Below are positions 2,357 to 18,976 of a stretch of DNA of 28,194 nucleotides, one piece after another. Origin of the DNA: a virus; IMG/VR virus record IMGVR_UViG_3300025769_000631, positions 1-28,194 of that record; one strand, given 5' to 3'. How positions within the stretch are numbered: the first letter of the stretch is position 1; every line of letters starts with the position of its first letter. Made by a program: the position numbers and the translations under genes. The notes below the pieces were generated by a model that worked only from the letters and a program-made list of their open reading frames with translations, was not told the DNA's origin and made no database searches.

Positions 2357-5300
2357 TTATTTTAATTTATAAAATTCTTCATATAGTGTACTTAGTGGGG
2401 AGTATATTTCAACAAATTGTAACTTTCCTGTAAAATTGCCTTTTTCATCAGGATATTGGTCAAAATTATCAACAGTTATAGTCCCTGCTTTAAAATAAAG
2501 AAATTTACCATTGTCCTCAATGTAAGGTTGGCTACTAGTTTTGTAAGTAACAGCATATCCTAATTGTCCCTTATATTTAATTACTACAAAGTTTCTAACA
2601 CCAGAAAATTCCTCTCTAGCTTTTGGATCAAAACTTTTTTCTTTTATTTCAAATATCGTACCTTCTTTAGCAATAGCTACCCCAAATTGACTACTTGGAT
2701 TTTCTAATGCACTTAAGTTTACTGCAGAGGGGTTTATATAATTAGAACTAGCAGGGCCCCAATATTCAAAATGCCATGCTTCATCTCTTGATCTATTGTC
2801 TGCTAATCTCCAGGGGTTGTACCAACCATATCTTGCTGCTATAGTAGCTACTATTTTCCAGTTTTCTTTTAATCTATCATTTAAATTGGCCTCAGCACTT
2901 ACACCTCCAGTATAACTTAATCCAGATATTCCTAAATCAATAGCACCCCCCCAACCATGTGGAGAACTACCTACTGGAGCGGCAGCTGGGTTGTTTCCAA
3001 ATGATGCTTGGTAGGCTAGGTTTCTATATGCGGTTGTGATACTGATATTAATTCCTGCGGCTTTAGCATCTGCTCTCCATTTTTTATAGGCTTCCCAAGC
3101 ATATGTATTTAATTTCCAGTAATCTTCTCCATGGTATGTTTTTAATTTTGAACCACCTTTTTCATCTGTTAAAGCTAATAATTGTGGGGCAGTTTCTTGC
3201 ATTTTACCATTTACCCCTCCTTTAGCTATACTATCTTGAGTTATAGGGGCATATGTATAAGATTGTGCCCCGTATTTATTAGGATTTATTATGGGTTCAG
3301 GATCTCCTACAATACCACTAATAAGAGCATTACCATCCGCCCCAAGAGTATATGATAATGCTGAATCTGATAAATCATATTCTACTGTAGTAAATAAATC
3401 AGCTGTTAATACAGTATTTTGAGTATTTGCTGTTGAAATTGTATGTAATTCAGTTGTCCAATCGTTTTCGTCAATTTTGTGGTTTACTTGGGTAATAACA
3501 AATTTTAAAGCATTTGGATAAGCTCTAGGTAAAAATTCTTGTCTTATAGCTAATTGATTATAAATTTTAATACCCGAAAGACCATCACAGGTTAAGTTTA
3601 AATCTATAGGAATAAAACCTATTGTGTTTGAAGGTTCACCTGTTTTTCTATATATTTCATTACTAATACCATTAACAAATCCTTTAAAACTATTTTTACC
3701 CATTGATATAAAATCAGGATCAAATTTAAAGTAATAAGGAGAAATAATAGGAATTCCTCTAACTTTTCCCCCAAAAGCATTAGCTAAATAAACCATGTAA
3801 CTTACATTTTTTGGGTTTTGATCTTCTTGCTTATTTTTTAATTGTTGATATATAACCCAAGCCCTAACTTTATTTGAATATTCAATCCAAGTATAATCAA
3901 TAAAATCTTTTCCTGTTACAGGACATCCTTTAATTTCTTTATGTCCTTGTTTAGTTATACCAAAATTAGTTTCTTTAAATTCTCTTCTTGGAAAGGGACC
4001 CCAATGTGTATCTTCTTCTGATTCATCCCATTTTTTGGATATTTTTGTGATTTGTTCTATAGTTAATGGGTCATATTCATTTGAACCAGTGGAGGGAGAT
4101 ACAAGAGGAGGAGTTTCAGGGTCATCATATCTTACAGTATATCTATCTGTTAAACCCTTCATCCATTTAGAAAAAGCAGTAGCATCATAGTTTTTAGTTT
4201 TTGTCCCTTCTGCTGTAGTACCAATAGCTATCATTGAAGCTAGTTCAGGGGTTATTTTTGTATCAAAGCCAAAATCTCTTACGAAATTAGAAGTTTGTGC
4301 CTTATTTTTAGTAGCAGGATTATAACCAAATAATTCAAATGGAACAGTAACTTTACCGAACCTATCTTTATATTTATCTGAGGTTTCAATTGATGGAATA
4401 GGGTTTTGATCTATAAATGTAATTATTCTATCATCATTAAGAACACATTCTATATTATTTATACCACCTAATGCTCCATTTATACCATTACATATATTTT
4501 GCAAAAATTTAAATAGATAAATTTGTCCTTTTTCATCTGTTGTGTCTGAAAGTAATGTAGTAACAAAATCATAATTTAAATAAATATTCATTATATTACC
4601 ATATATAGCTTTATTATCTTGAGTCCCAAAATTATTTACACGACTTAGAAAAGGCCAAAAGTTAATTACCCCAGTATCTAATCCACCTGCAGTTTTTCCA
4701 CTATCAAATTGATCTGGAGTATTAAATGAACTTCTATCTAAGAAAAAAGGTTTTATAAAACAAATTCTAGGATCAAATGATACTTGATAAGGGTATATAG
4801 CACAAATTTGGTCATCACTTAAATCTATACCTAATATTTTATCACCATTTATAGAAGGTAAAACATATTTTTGGATTTTTATTAATAATTCTCTAAAAGT
4901 AAGAAAATAAGAATACCTTATAGTATTAACTCCATCATCTGTTCCTTTTTTAAGTGGTATAGTAGGGACACTATTAGTAAATCTAGCGGCATTTTCAGCT
5001 TGTTTTAAATTTCTTCCTACAACCCCTAATAAACTTAAATAGTTATTTTTTACTCCATTTTCTGACCCATCCCATTTTCCAACATCAGGAGAAACTATAT
5101 CACTATAAAGAGCATAAGATAAATTTGAGTCTCCTGCATTAGTAATAATAGCACTATTAGCATCTGCTAAACCTACTGTTACTTTACTAGTTGCTTTTTG
5201 GATGGATTTTTGTAATTCTCCTGCATCAACTATATCTTGAGGTAAATTTACTTTTAAGGATTCAATAACATCTCCTACAGTAATTAATTTTAAATTAATA

Positions 5301-6106
5301 TCATATGTTCCATCTGGGTTGAATTTCCAACTAAAATTAGTTACTTTACCTAAAAACCCATCATAATTTCCTTCGTATTCCTTTCTTTGTTGTCTAATTT
5401 TTCCTAATACCTCAGTAAATGGAGCTTTTTGATTGTAAAACCAATATTTTTCCATTAAAGTACTCCCAGTTGTTTTGTAAGTATCTTTTTGTATTACTTC
5501 ACCTTCTACTTCTATGGCGGAAGCACCATAATATTTATTCCAACCCCATTCTAAAAGCATAGTACACCCTAAACGAAGATAAAGTAATTCTAACATTTCA
5601 AATTGGAACTTGTTATGAGCTTTAATTTCAACATTAGCTTCTCGTATAGAACCCCTATTTTTAGCTTTTATATTAGCACTGATAAGTCCTGGTGGTGGGG
5701 TAATACCAAAGGTTGTTCCTCCTAATCCATAGGCTGCTGCATCATTCCAAAGACTTTGGTTAGAATTGAGTACTCCCGAACGCATATTATAATTTCCTAC
5801 ACTAGATATATTTCCTTCATTGTCTCGATTAATATCTAAACTAGATAAAGAATTGAATAATACTGCTTTTTCGGCCAATCTAGTACCTATAAAATTTGCG
5901 GGATTAGTAAAACCAATATCTGTTAACCTTTTTCTTCCTAAGTCATCATCATCAACAGAAATAGAAGAGCCTAATTTTAACCAGGCATTTTGATTAGATA
6001 GTACAGTTAATTGTTCATTACTTCTTACTTCTAACCCATGGAGATTTTGCCGGATTTGGATTTGGTTTTCAACCCAAGGTTCAAAAGATTCTCCTATTAT
6101 ACTCAT
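2357..6106 (-). CDS. Large baseplate/hub-like protein with M15 zinc peptidase domain
   Basis: A 1249-residue protein, the largest in the window. Residues 1 to about 950 are an Asn/Gly-rich structural region beginning FEPWVENQIQIRQ, without a motif I can name. Residues of roughly 985-1120 form an M15 (VanY / D-Ala-D-Ala carboxypeptidase / endolysin-type) domain: SPHGWGGAID supplies zinc ligands H1050 and D1057, and EAWHFEYW supplies ligand H1112 with catalytic E1109. This domain type cuts peptide stems of peptidoglycan. In a tail protein it probably acts locally during DNA entry, the job done by the gp5 lysozyme in T4. About 130 further residues follow. The start overlaps the LysM gene's stop (ATGA), and the next gene follows after one base. 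The peptidase call is strong; the hub assignment rests on context and size. Confidence 0.8.
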   Translation of the reverse strand: MSIIGESFEPWVENQIQIRQNLHGLEVRSNEQLTVLSNQNAWLKLGSSISVDDDDLGRKRLTDIGFTNPANFIGTRLAEKAVLFNSLSSLDINRDNEGNISSVGNYNMRSGVLNSNQSLWNDAAAYGLGGTTFGITPPPGLISANIKAKNRGSIREANVEIKAHNKFQFEMLELLYLRLGCTMLLEWGWNKYYGASAIEVEGEVIQKDTYKTTGSTLMEKYWFYNQKAPFTEVLGKIRQQRKEYEGNYDGFLGKVTNFSWKFNPDGTYDINLKLITVGDVIESLKVNLPQDIVDAGELQKSIQKATSKVTVGLADANSAIITNAGDSNLSYALYSDIVSPDVGKWDGSENGVKNNYLSLLGVVGRNLKQAENAARFTNSVPTIPLKKGTDDGVNTIRYSYFLTFRELLIKIQKYVLPSINGDKILGIDLSDDQICAIYPYQVSFDPRICFIKPFFLDRSSFNTPDQFDSGKTAGGLDTGVINFWPFLSRVNNFGTQDNKAIYGNIMNIYLNYDFVTTLLSDTTDEKGQIYLFKFLQNICNGINGALGGINNIECVLNDDRIITFIDQNPIPSIETSDKYKDRFGKVTVPFELFGYNPATKNKAQTSNFVRDFGFDTKITPELASMIAIGTTAEGTKTKNYDATAFSKWMKGLTDRYTVRYDDPETPPLVSPSTGSNEYDPLTIEQITKISKKWDESEEDTHWGPFPRREFKETNFGITKQGHKEIKGCPVTGKDFIDYTWIEYSNKVRAWVIYQQLKNKQEDQNPKNVSYMVYLANAFGGKVRGIPIISPYYFKFDPDFISMGKNSFKGFVNGISNEIYRKTGEPSNTIGFIPIDLNLTCDGLSGIKIYNQLAIRQEFLPRAYPNALKFVITQVNHKIDENDWTTELHTISTANTQNTVLTADLFTTVEYDLSDSALSYTLGADGNALISGIVGDPEPIINPNKYGAQSYTYAPITQDSIAKGGVNGKMQETAPQLLALTDEKGGSKLKTYHGEDYWKLNTYAWEAYKKWRADAKAAGINISITTAYRNLAYQASFGNNPAAAPVGSSPHGWGGAIDLGISGLSYTGGVSAEANLNDRLKENWKIVATIAARYGWYNPWRLADNRSRDEAWHFEYWGPASSNYINPSAVNLSALENPSSQFGVAIAKEGTIFEIKEKSFDPKAREEFSGVRNFVVIKYKGQLGYAVTYKTSSQPYIEDNGKFLYFKAGTITVDNFDQYPDEKGNFTGKLQFVEIYSPLSTLYEEFYKLK

Positions 6107-8961: not shown

Positions 8962-11382
8962 TTATTGTACTTCGTATAAACTTAAAGGAGCCATTTCAGG
9001 TGTTTTCTTAATTAATTGTTCTAATAGCATATTAGTTTTATTAGCTTGCTTAATCATTGGGGAATTATCTCCTAAAGGAATTACTGCTTCAGGACCAGCT
9101 TCACCTATAAGTGCTGGGGTAGGGCCTGTTACTGTTCCACCATTGGCCATTTCGTATAAACCAGCAGAAGTCCCCCAATTTTTTTCCATGGAGGATTCAA
9201 CATTTCGGCCTTGTCTATCTATGGCAGAACCAAATTCATAATCCTTACCAAACCAACTACCAATCCAACCTATTATATCTTCTATTAAAGCAGCAGCCAT
9301 CATTAAAATTTGAATAACAGGATCTAAAAGGGATATTAAACTAGCTACAGCACTTAAAATTGGCATTATAGCGTTTGCAACTGTAACAAAAATTTCTTTT
9401 AATTTTGCTATAGTTGCATTAAATTGTTCTTGTACACTTACTTGATTATTTAATTGTTCTACTCCTTTTTCTTCTAGCATACGTTGAGCTTCAGCTACTC
9501 CATAAGTTGCTTTAAGTATTTCAAAATTTTTCTTTGCTTCCTCAGCTTTTTCTCCAGTTAAACCTTTTAATTGATCTTCAAGTAATAAAGTAGATGCTAA
9601 TTCTTCTCTACTCATTCCAACTGATTTTGCTAAAGCATCTTGTTGGATTCTATTTAATTTTGTAAATTCAGCTGAGTCTCCTATTTGTTCTGATATTTCT
9701 TTTGCTACAGTAGCTAAATCATTATTTAAGGCAGCTTGTCTTGCTTTTTCTAAATTAATATCTTTACCTAATAATAATTCAGCTTGTAATTCGTTTTCAA
9801 TTGACTGTTCAAAGTTAAGTAAACTTTCTGCTATTGCATCAACTTTACTTAATTCCATACCTAATGATTTAGCAGTTGCAACTGCATCTGCTATTAATTT
9901 AGGATTTTTACCAAATGATAATGTAGTAGCAGCAGAAACTTTTCCTATGTCTTTTAGTAATTTTTGTTCATTAAGTAAAACACCATTTTGAGTAGCAGAT
10001 ATTTTTGCTTGAGCTAAAAATTGACCTGTAATTTCATCTGTGGTTTTGTTTGTTCCTAATTGAATACGGGCTATACCTTGTAATTCTTCATTAGTAAATC
10101 CAGACTTTTCCCTTAACTTAGTAAAAGAAACAGACATTTCATCACTTAATGCAACATTAGTTCCTAAAGCACCATTTATAGCCTTAAAAGTTTCTCTAAT
10201 CCCTTTTGTATTTACAAATATATCTCCTGAAGCGGCAGCTGTTTGGGTAAATTCTTTATTTAATGCTAAAGCATCATCATAAGTCATTCCAAATTCCTTA
10301 GCCATTTCACCCGCAGCTTTATCTAAACCTTTTATTGCTTCATAAAGTTCTAAAAATAATGCTGCGGGGCCTAAAGCTTTTTTTAACACTCCTTTAAGCA
10401 ATTTACCCATACTTTTAAATAGTTTGGTCATTCCTGCTTTTAATGGACTTTTACCGCCTGTTATACTTTTAGCTAAATCGTTTCCTGCTAATACTTTTCC
10501 AGCTCGAGCTTGGACTGATTTTCCTGCTAGCATTTTTCCGTCTTTGCCCATTACTAAATCTTCAATACCTCCTTTTTTAGCAATTTTTCTTACTTTGTCT
10601 TGGTCTAAACCTCCCCCTACTACTTCATCACCTATATTTCTTCCTTTACCTTTAGTTAAAGCTTTTCCTTTATAATCTTGGATTTGTTTAAGAGCTTTAA
10701 TTTGTTTTTTGCTAAGACTTTCTGTTTGGCCTGCTAAATCCATATTAGTTTTAGCAGTACGTTCTGCTTCTTCTCTTGCCTCTTTGAATGGTCCAGAAAA
10801 TGCCTTTAGTCCAGGAATACTTTCGGTGAATTCTTCCATAAAACTAAAGGTTTTTACACCTACATTATTTTTAATTTTTTCTGTTTGTTCAGCAATTTTT
10901 TCTATGGTTGCTAAAAATTTATCTGCAGCTTTTAAATTATCTTTAAATTCTTTAAGGTTAGATCCTGTTATTCTTCCACTTTTAATAGCTACCTCTAAAC
11001 TATCTCTTTCTAATTGGGCCTTTTTCTGTAGTTTTTCTAATGTTTCTTTTTCTATTGCTAAGCCTTTTTCATTCTCATATCTTAACTCTCTAGCAACAGA
11101 TTCCATACCCCGTAGAGCTTTTTTAGCATATCCTAATTCAGTATTCATTTTAGAAACTTCTGCTATACTATCACGAAAAGAATCTGATATATAAGATAAT
11201 GTAGAATTTACATCATTTAAATCCTCATCAAGTTTTTTGATTTCCCTTCTAGCAGCTGCTATTTCACTTGCCTTAAAAACAGGAGGAGTATCCCTACGAC
11301 CAAGTTTTTTATACATTTGGTCGATTATTTTATTTAAGTCCTTAATATCGTTAGATAATTTTTTAGGATCAAAATTAGCCAT
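8962..11382 (-). CDS. Tail tape measure protein
   Basis: An 806-residue protein that would fill the tail lumen and set tail length; T4's equivalent is gp29 (590 residues). Residues 1-200 are long, charged, coiled-coil-like helices (DLNKIIDQMYKKLG, SAEVSKMNTELG-type repeats). A Lys/Gly-rich stretch follows around 240-330. A strongly hydrophobic block with Ala, Ile and Leu lies at about 662-710, as in tape measures that form a membrane channel. Near 747-771 is GPTPALIGEAGPEAVIPL, a C-terminal signature seen in very many phage tape measures. It lies directly downstream of the two overlapping chaperone frames, the standard arrangement. The long helical length fits a tail somewhat longer than T4's. 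Identity is well supported by signature and context. Confidence 0.9.
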   Translation of the reverse strand: MANFDPKKLSNDIKDLNKIIDQMYKKLGRRDTPPVFKASEIAAARREIKKLDEDLNDVNSTLSYISDSFRDSIAEVSKMNTELGYAKKALRGMESVARELRYENEKGLAIEKETLEKLQKKAQLERDSLEVAIKSGRITGSNLKEFKDNLKAADKFLATIEKIAEQTEKIKNNVGVKTFSFMEEFTESIPGLKAFSGPFKEAREEAERTAKTNMDLAGQTESLSKKQIKALKQIQDYKGKALTKGKGRNIGDEVVGGGLDQDKVRKIAKKGGIEDLVMGKDGKMLAGKSVQARAGKVLAGNDLAKSITGGKSPLKAGMTKLFKSMGKLLKGVLKKALGPAALFLELYEAIKGLDKAAGEMAKEFGMTYDDALALNKEFTQTAAASGDIFVNTKGIRETFKAINGALGTNVALSDEMSVSFTKLREKSGFTNEELQGIARIQLGTNKTTDEITGQFLAQAKISATQNGVLLNEQKLLKDIGKVSAATTLSFGKNPKLIADAVATAKSLGMELSKVDAIAESLLNFEQSIENELQAELLLGKDINLEKARQAALNNDLATVAKEISEQIGDSAEFTKLNRIQQDALAKSVGMSREELASTLLLEDQLKGLTGEKAEEAKKNFEILKATYGVAEAQRMLEEKGVEQLNNQVSVQEQFNATIAKLKEIFVTVANAIMPILSAVASLISLLDPVIQILMMAAALIEDIIGWIGSWFGKDYEFGSAIDRQGRNVESSMEKNWGTSAGLYEMANGGTVTGPTPALIGEAGPEAVIPLGDNSPMIKQANKTNMLLEQLIKKTPEMAPLSLYEVQ

Positions 11383-11406: not shown

Positions 11407-11748
11407 TTATTTATAACTTGTTTTACCTTTGTAATCTTTTGTGGCATTTAAAAATTCAGGAGTATTTACTTTACCATCTGGGGTAATTAGAGTTTTAGTA
11501 CCTTTCTTTCCAGATCTAGCATTTTCTATAGCCTTTTTTTCATTTTCATAAAAAGTATTTATTTCAGAAAGAGTAAATTTTCTAAGCCAAATAGGCATAT
11601 TATAGATAGTAGCATAATCATATCCTCCTTTACCGTGGAATACTAAACTATGGATTTGTTGAAATAAGTTTTTTCTAAACTCAGGTGCGAACTCAGGCGT
11701 CAGGCCAAAAAAAGTTAAGCCCAATGGGCAATGTCGCCTCCTCTCCAC
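11407..11748 (-). CDS. Tail assembly chaperone, downstream frame (probable frameshift product)
   Basis: This frame overlaps the end of the upstream chaperone by 56 bases and sits in the +1 (equivalently -2) frame relative to it. Its only in-frame start candidates before the conserved part are GTG at 11748 and internal TTG codons; none has a suitably placed leader. I therefore think it is translated mainly as a C-terminal extension made by slippage on the T7 run at 11707-11713. That would add 99 residues to the first 238 of the upstream protein, giving about 337. The extension has FRKNLFQQIHSLVFHGKG-type sequence, then YNMPIWLRKFTLSEI, a Met-Pro-x-x-Leu-Arg block typical of tail chaperone C-terminal parts, and a charged helix. 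An independent gene or a homopolymer sequencing error are the alternatives. Confidence 0.65.
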   Translation of the reverse strand: MERRRHCPLGLTFFGLTPEFAPEFRKNLFQQIHSLVFHGKGGYDYATIYNMPIWLRKFTLSEINTFYENEKKAIENARSGKKGTKTLITPDGKVNTPEFLNATKDYKGKTSYK

Positions 11749-12493: not shown

Positions 12494-12766
12494 TTATTTT
12501 TTATTAATTTTATTTTCAAATTTATCAAATCTTGAATCCATTTGTCTATAAATTTCATCAATTTGATTTTGGTAATCTAATTGTAAATCTTTAAATTGAT
12601 TATTAAAGTCTTTACCATATTCATCTATAGCTAAATAAACATTATCTACAGATTGGTTAATATCTCTAACTTTGGTTTTTACCTTAAACACTCCTATCGA
12701 AGCATACCCTACTAAGAATACACCTACTGTGGATAGGACACCTAAAACAAATTCTAAATTTTCCAT
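12494..12766 (-). CDS. Small single-pass membrane protein with coiled coil
   Basis: A 90-residue protein. Residues of about 5-27 (LEFVLGVLSTVGVFLVGYASIG) form one hydrophobic segment, followed by Lys/Arg (KVKTKV), so a single membrane helix with the C-terminus inside is the simplest topology. Residues 32-90 are a charged helix with heptad-like spacing (QSVDNVYLAIDEYG, YQNQIDEIYRQMDSRF). Small membrane proteins of this shape occur in phages as spanin, holin-accessory or host-inhibition proteins, but nothing here is diagnostic. It sits immediately downstream of the tail tube terminator and before the chaperones, so it may have its own promoter. Gene real; function unknown. Confidence 0.65.
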   Translation of the reverse strand: MENLEFVLGVLSTVGVFLVGYASIGVFKVKTKVRDINQSVDNVYLAIDEYGKDFNNQFKDLQLDYQNQIDEIYRQMDSRFDKFENKINKK

Positions 12767-18224: not shown

Positions 18225-18944
18225 TTATTTAGATCCAGATATAGTAATACTCATACCATCTTTAACAGCATTATCATAATAATCTAATAAATCTTCAACA
18301 ATTGGGTCTCTATGGTTAGTAAATAAAGTAATAGCTGAAAGATTTTTTATTTTTCTAGATGCAGTATAAAGAAATTTAAAACCAGAATCTGCTTTTCTTT
18401 TTAAATCAGTTTGGTTTGAATCACCACATATCATCATTTTACTTCTTAAACCAATACGAGATGTAATCATCTCCATTTGTTCATGAGTAACATTCTGGGC
18501 TTCATCAACAATAATTATTGAATCTAAAAATGTTCTCCCTCTCATAAATGATACGGGTACAATTTCTATTTTACCATCAGCTATTAATTTATCAATTTTT
18601 ATTTTATCATATAATGCATAAAAATTTTGATAAATTGGTTGAACCCAAGGATCCATTTTTTCTCTTAAATCACCAGGTAAAAATCCTATTTCTTCTTTAG
18701 ATACTGTAGGTCTTGTAATAATGATTTTTTCGTATTGTCTTCTCATTAACCCATCTAAAGCTACATTACATGCTAATAAAGTTTTTCCACTACCTGCACT
18801 TCCTGCTAATAGAGTAATAGTATTTTCTAGGATTTCTTTTTTAGCTTCTTTTTGTTCATCATTTAATTGTAACTTAAATTTGATCGGATTTTTTGGAATC
18901 CTTTTTTGACGATACACGTCGTCAGTATGAGGTTTACTCGTCAT
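18225..18944 (-). CDS. phoH: PhoH-like P-loop ATPase
   Basis: A 239-residue P-loop protein. With the start placed at the ATG at 18942-18944 (MTSKPHTDDVYRQ), Walker A is GSAGSGKT at 48-55 and Walker B IIIVDEAQN at about 143-151. Other family landmarks are LNDEQKEA, ITRPTVSKEEIGFLPGDL and FTNHRDPIVEDLLDYY. The reading frame continues seven codons upstream to a TTG at 18965, but the ATG is more ordinary and leaves room for a leader. PhoH-like proteins are common in marine phages and are a known marker gene; they are ATPases of uncertain phage role. It lies between the gp23 terminator and the neck genes, an unusual position among virion genes, and has its own promoter-like element. Confidence 0.92.
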   Translation of the reverse strand: MTSKPHTDDVYRQKRIPKNPIKFKLQLNDEQKEAKKEILENTITLLAGSAGSGKTLLACNVALDGLMRRQYEKIIITRPTVSKEEIGFLPGDLREKMDPWVQPIYQNFYALYDKIKIDKLIADGKIEIVPVSFMRGRTFLDSIIIVDEAQNVTHEQMEMITSRIGLRSKMMICGDSNQTDLKRKADSGFKFLYTASRKIKNLSAITLFTNHRDPIVEDLLDYYDNAVKDGMSITISGSK

Positions 18945-18963
18945 ATAAAATAACTTTGTGTTC

Positions 18964-18976
18964 AATAATAAATATT
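18964..18976 (-). promoter_or_regulatory. Candidate late-promoter element before the PhoH-like gene
   Basis: The coding strand reads AATATTTATTATTGAAC, ending 19 bases before the ATG at 18944. It lies immediately beyond the capsid gene terminator, exactly where a new transcript must start if that terminator works. This position is the best contextual support for the element being a promoter. Confidence 0.5.

Follow-up and report, generated by a model that had tools for sequence, protein, structure and literature searches.

Probable +1 programmed frameshifting in the tail assembly chaperone genes of a clade of T4-like phages

How can a phage translate a reading frame that overlaps the end of the preceding tail gene, lies in another phase, and has no good start codon of its own? 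This question is raised by the tail genes of the window, the whole stretch of DNA that we analysed, which is one linear virus fragment of 28,194 bases and coincides with its source record, IMGVR_UViG_3300025769_000631. The frames of a gp26-like tail assembly chaperone (TAC-N) and of a second domain (TAC-C) overlap there, between the tail tube gene and a putative tape measure gene (Table 1). The latter is assigned from its position and length; its product (8962-11382) has no family match of its own, and the gene at the equivalent place in the genome of immuto is annotated as tail tape measure. The interval between the tube and TAC-N genes also holds an ORF of 90 aa (12494-12766, minus strand) with a hydrophobic N-terminus, which has only weak matches, to families of unknown function. 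Elsewhere on the minus strand, inspection by eye identified a resemblance to D-Ala-D-Ala carboxypeptidase in a C-terminal stretch (SPHGWGGAIDLG) of the 1249-aa product of 2357-6106, and a PhoH-like ATPase motif (GSAGSGKT) in 18225-18965, which sits among structural genes. We found no tRNA gene in the 28,194-base window.

The ORFs and the coding strand both place the overlap of the two frames at a run of seven T, as the first-pass annotation of this DNA had it. The frames meet at AACTTTTTTTGG (11716-11705, minus strand), and the coding strand at the junction reads AAC TTT TTT TGG CCT GAC GCC TGA. If TTT TTT is read, T11707 is skipped, and GGC is read next, the 238 residues encoded up to this point are joined to the 99 residues of the second domain, and our recomputation gives the same fusion of 337 aa as had been proposed. 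The -1 frame of the window reaches a stop two codons past the site. Before the TAC-C domain, the +1 frame contains GTG (11748) and TTG (11724) as its only starts, and the next ATG lies deep inside the domain. Runs of this kind are not rare in the window, which is AT-rich and whose coding strand has five further T runs of 7 or more. Hence, the single sequence alone is weak evidence, and it is the relatives that supply the weight.

Table 1. Positions of the chaperone frames, the putative shift site and the neighbouring tail genes in the window.
Feature	Position	Strand	Remarks
Tail sheath protein	15167-13404	minus	phrog_23, E 6.6e-74
Tail tube protein	13364-12876	minus	phrog_4542, E 3.8e-22
TAC-N, gp26-like tail assembly chaperone	12421-11693	minus	frame 0, 242 aa, ends ...GLNFFWPDA*
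Second ORF	11748-11407	minus	+1 relative to TAC-N; contains ...LTFFGLTPEF...
AGGAGG, Shine-Dalgarno-like element	11742-11737	minus	23 nt ahead of the first T of the site
Putative shift site, T7	11713-11707	minus	UUU_UUU would be read, then +1 past T11707; frame-0 A-site codon UGG
TAC-C, second domain	11706-11410	minus	+1 frame, 99 aa; stop 11409-11407
Putative dual-coding overlap GGCCTGACGCCTGA	11706-11693	minus	frame 0 to its UGA, plus +1 frame
Predicted frameshift product TAC-NC	join 12421-11708 + 11706-11407	minus	337 aa, derived from both frames
Putative tape measure gene	11382-8962	minus	806 aa; assigned from position and length; starts 24 nt past the TAC-C stop

We gathered 297 loci, with 229 distinct junctions, from public phage records and from scans of viral contigs. 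TAC-C was detected in 286 of them, and for 280 of these the domain is in the +1 frame (some contigs are counted twice). Clustering at 90% TAC-N identity resulted in 134 clusters with a +1 TAC-C, and the hosts of the named relatives are Flavobacterium, Rhodothermus, and Microcystis. A site compatible with a +1 shift was kept in all 134 clusters, with both frames maintained, which is the pattern that the first-pass annotation had expected of recoding. The site is TTT TTT TGG in 100 clusters, TTT CTT TGG in 21, and another +1-compatible form in 13, the commonest context being TTT-TTT-TGG-CCT. Positions 0 to +11 of the site are almost invariant, except for the alternation of T and C at position 3, and nearly all of the 128 aligned sites have YTT_T at positions 3-6, i.e., the RF2-type arrangement of YUU followed by U.

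These data bear directly on the possibility of a sequencing error, in which the true gene would have one T fewer and a continuous frame. Homopolymers are indeed error-prone. However, the same frame relation recurs in 280 loci from many metagenomes, also at sites without a long run. The deposited genomes of immuto and Mel-JY01 agree with it, and RM378 has the same site (CTTTTTTTGG) with an open +1 frame, although its TAC-C was not recognised by our profile. The number of T is identical in the separate contigs L008 and L009, and a number that fuses both frames, named beforehand as evidence against recoding, is absent from all collected relatives. The comparative data already refute this explanation, and its probability is negligible.

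The coding constraint changes phase at the shift site. Within the window group, the variable positions upstream of the site are the third positions of frame 0 (1.18 bits vs 0.25-0.27), and those from 51 to 96 nt downstream are the third positions of the +1 frame (1.20 bits vs 0.55-0.77). The overlap itself is constrained beyond its amino acids: its Pro codon is CCT in 132 out of 133 cases, vs 35% of the Pro codons elsewhere, and its Asp codon is GAC in 89 out of 89, vs 22% of the Asp codons elsewhere (the nominal p-values are tiny in both cases and ignore shared ancestry).

TAC-C could instead be a separate protein, made either from a start codon of its own or through re-initiation, with an incidental overlap. 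The GTG and TTG codons of the window are in frame for this, there is an AGGAGG upstream, and two relatives (L260 and L264, see below) encode TAC-C as a separate gene with an ATG. Some ATG, GTG, or TTG is found upstream in the +1 frame in 79 of the 134 clusters, at scattered positions, which we counted against frameshifting. In the other 55 clusters, the +1 frame ahead of the site has none of these codons, in many cases owing to a +1 stop one codon before the T run, and there is no start ahead of the domain; start positions are not conserved. The lack of a good start that had been described in the window extends to many of its relatives, which combine a conserved slippery site with a second frame that is open and without a proper start. 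Furthermore, a separate protein does not explain why the T run and CCT are conserved at the nucleotide level, and we regard this explanation as quite improbable. In the record of immuto (MW353176.1, L001), TAC-C lies at 2207-2449, the CDS immuto35A_232 (2339-2449, hypothetical, 36 codons) is a truncated call of it, and the record has no frameshift product.

In which direction would the frame shift? The second frame is not reached by a -1 shift, and the -1 frame is shut after 2 codons in 112 of the 134 clusters, in agreement with the initial view that -1 does not work here. That view left the choice between +1 and -2, of which the former was borne out and the latter was not. A -2 ribosomal frameshift on the T run, as in phage Mu, would add one Phe to the fusion and fits the T7 of the window and 106 of the 134 clusters. 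However, in the other 28 (with CTT, CTA, or TTC-TTT sites), the tRNA in the P site would need to re-pair with TTC or TCT, which makes -2 re-pairing impossible, whereas re-pairing at +1 is possible in all clusters, as UUU_U, CUU_U, or UUU_C. Since only +1 re-pairing works in these 28 clusters, e.g., at TTT-CTT-TGG, the choice of direction is decided in favour of +1, and a -2 shift is extremely improbable. Slippage of the RNA polymerase on the T run, which would produce mixed mRNAs to be read normally by ribosomes, suits the 205 of 280 loci that have the T7 homopolymer; the 75 that lack a run of seven T (TTTCTTT, TTCTTTT, CTTTTTT) keep the same frame relation, and we deem it very improbable.

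We thus consider it very probable, from the comparison of sequences, that TAC-N and TAC-NC are products of genuine +1 recoding in a T4-like phage with a contractile tail. The deep comparison of relatives supports the original proposal of a programmed frameshift in a tail chaperone pair placed just before the tape measure gene. Most ribosomes would stay in frame 0 until the UGA at 11695-11693, producing TAC-N. In the remaining cases, the tRNA would re-pair one base downstream (UUU_U to UUU), GGC would be read next, and the slipped ribosome would continue in the +1 frame to produce TAC-NC. We infer that the slip occurs on the ribosome. The A site holds UGG, which is not a stop, and we found no RNA structure downstream (RNAalifold gives -1.9 kcal/mol without covariation, with a shuffle z of about -0.4); no stimulator is therefore evident in these respects, and we counted this against frameshifting.

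The shift codons themselves have precedents. Natural RF2 shift codons are CUU_U in their conserved form and UUU_U in a minority form (PMC5009743), and the P site of the window clade has either CUU_U (21 clusters with CUU_UGG and one with CUU_UAC) or UUU_U. The likeness to RF2 (prfB) stops there: the A site holds UGG where RF2 has UGA, the Shine-Dalgarno-like element is at ~26 nt from the P codon, and there is no autoregulation. A distant Streptococcus phage, SagM-GXN1 (L005), has TTC TTT CGT near 2200-2230 and its second domain in the +1 frame. This UUU_CGU is of the same type as the UUU_C site of influenza PA-X, where mass spectrometry identified the slippage as +1 (PMC3498833), but the ribosome is bacterial and the gene unrelated, making it an analogy only.

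An AGGAGG-like element is frequent upstream of the site. AGGAG or GGAGG was found 18-42 nt upstream in 94 of the 134 clusters (70%), vs 2.6% of windows of equal size taken from these genes. An unbiased count of k-mers also gave GGAGG as the most enriched 5-mer (57-fold), and its end is usually 23-28 nt ahead of the first T. The amino acids encoded by the element vary between clades, and codon -10 is GAG in 30 out of 30 sequences of the window group, GAG making up 10% of the Glu codons elsewhere. The constraint on the element thus acts on nucleotides. None of the 22 listed genes of the window has a Shine-Dalgarno sequence before its start. Pairing between the purine element and the U run was scored at 0.74, vs 0.51 when the sequence upstream was shuffled (mean z -0.95), which is suggestive only. 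Stimulatory Shine-Dalgarno sequences lie about 3 nt from the shift in RF2 and about 10 nt in dnaX. The spacing is different here, and we know of no stimulator in such a position. Because the element is also present in L264, a relative that does not shift, its link with frameshifting is not proven. A GGAGGG shared by the cyanophages P-SSM2 (L279) and S-PM2 (L280), identical in both, occurs ~9 nt upstream of their TTTTTTC sites at the end of the gp26 gene and resembles a classical -1 Shine-Dalgarno stimulator.

What are the products of these frames? TAC-N matches phrog_150 (baseplate hub) with an E of 1.9e-10. It scores 20.8 bits against PF12322, under the cut-off of 24.5, and its relative in RM378 passes (37.6). 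This family takes in both gp26 (8.8e-64) and gp51 (3.9e-52) of T4, the second of which has an additional C-terminal domain, phrog_634. Immuto, Mel-JY01, and RM378 have no match to phrog_634. Nevertheless, a TAC-C profile built from 30 sequences aligned with the C-terminal domains of gp51 from seven T4-like phages, T4 among them (E 5.7e-9 and probability 95.9 by hhalign), and our profile also detects S-PM2 (E 3e-4) and P-SSM2 (E 8e-4), both in the -1 frame. We modelled the TAC-N and TAC-C domains separately with AF2. The TAC-N model (pLDDT 92) has strong matches among predicted viral proteins, including baseplate hub and hub assembly proteins of the T4-like kind. Its best match among solved structures, the HK97 tail assembly chaperone 2ob9, is weak (probability 0.33, TM 0.44 by target); searching solved structures with the TAC-N sequence revealed nothing convincing, and the fold search with TAC-C gave no significant match. 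The homology of the domains, the fold matches of TAC-N, and the position between the tube and tape measure genes support the assignment of the products TAC-N and TAC-NC as tail assembly chaperones with homology to gp26/gp51 of T4.

The T4-like phages provide natural controls. By their coordinates, P-SSM2, S-PM2, HTVC008M, phiM12, KVP40, and phiW-14 have TAC-C in the -1 frame (for HTVC008M and KVP40 the frames come from the coordinates), and where the junction is readable the classic -1 sites are such as TTTTTTC; this covers the junctions other than L281, L283, L288, and L289/L290, whose matches were unreoriented minus-strand ones or uninformative. In T4, genes 26 and 51 are two separate genes on opposite strands. 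The TAC-N tree has a branch that parts this classic set from the rest (SH-aLRT 99). L006 and L270 both branch basally on the +1 side, and their downstream ORF is in the -1 frame (judged by eye for L270), but several long branches, chiefly those of RM378, L006, and L270, limit the deep placements in this tree. Relatives with a separate start for the second frame, which had been named as evidence against recoding, do exist: L260 (about 2208-2500) and L264 (about 2205-2500) have a TAC-C with its own ATG just past the stop of TAC-N. Yet their shift sites are altered, to TTC TTG TAT in L260 and TTC CTT TGG CCA in L264, and the tree places them within the CUU_U clade (98 and 99). Nested within a frameshifting clade and with an altered site, they look like a derived loss of the frameshift. 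It is conceivable, although we think it rather unlikely, that the conserved AGGAGG-like element, at ~26 nt from the shift codon, stimulates +1 shifts in a new way, either by pairing with the U run or via the anti-Shine-Dalgarno of ribosomes that start the genes of this phage without such a signal, and that one homologous chaperone gene has moved between -1 shift, +1 shift, gene duplication, and split gene.

Tail chaperone frameshifts are mostly -1, and the window was initially described as a less common case in a T4-like phage. The direction is unusual, but the pair itself belongs to a known type of T4-like frameshift: gp26/gp51 are of the same families and occupy the equivalent position ahead of the tape measure gene, and the comparators that we checked have TAC-C in the -1 frame, or two genes in T4, where the window clade has +1. 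The chaperone genes of T4-like phages were reportedly identified by Vladimirov, Gautam and Davidson in 2022 (Virology 566:9), who are said to have assigned genes 26 and 51. We found no report of a +1 shift for the window clade in the literature, a coverage that stops short of Vladimirov et al. 2022. In a paper of 2025, the TAC sites of T4-like phages are cited as poly-T signals for -1 shifts.

The frameshifting of G-T genes is widely conserved in long-tailed phages, T4 excepted (2016 review, PMC5009743). In lambda and its many relatives (Xu, Hendrix and Duda 2004), the genes for the major tail protein and the tape measure flank overlapping frames that encode a short and a long chaperone, gpG and gpGT (PMC5009743). 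The window pair is alike in having a short and a long chaperone with frames that overlap before the tape measure, but the lambda shift is -1 at a site of the X XXY YYZ type, and we detected no sequence homology between the pairs. By analogy with gpG/gpGT, the long and short forms would both bind the tape measure protein, and the C-terminal domain would recruit tube subunits. The tail chaperone gene of Halorubrum virus HSTV-2, a myovirus, very likely uses a +1 frameshift (PMC5009743, PMC8211752); this virus is archaeal, and we liken it to the window pair by the type of gene and the described direction.

A frameshifted chaperone pair was thus already known, and the unusual features here are the +1 direction, the upstream element, and the codons on which the shift would occur. 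Public records mis-annotate the +1 clade, which is a large one, and searches for -1 heptamers will overlook +1 chaperone sites. One homologous pair is found in four states: -1 in cyanophages and others, +1 in the window clade, two genes in T4, and a separate gene in L260 and L264. This makes it a good natural system for studying how recoding can switch direction and still yield the same products.
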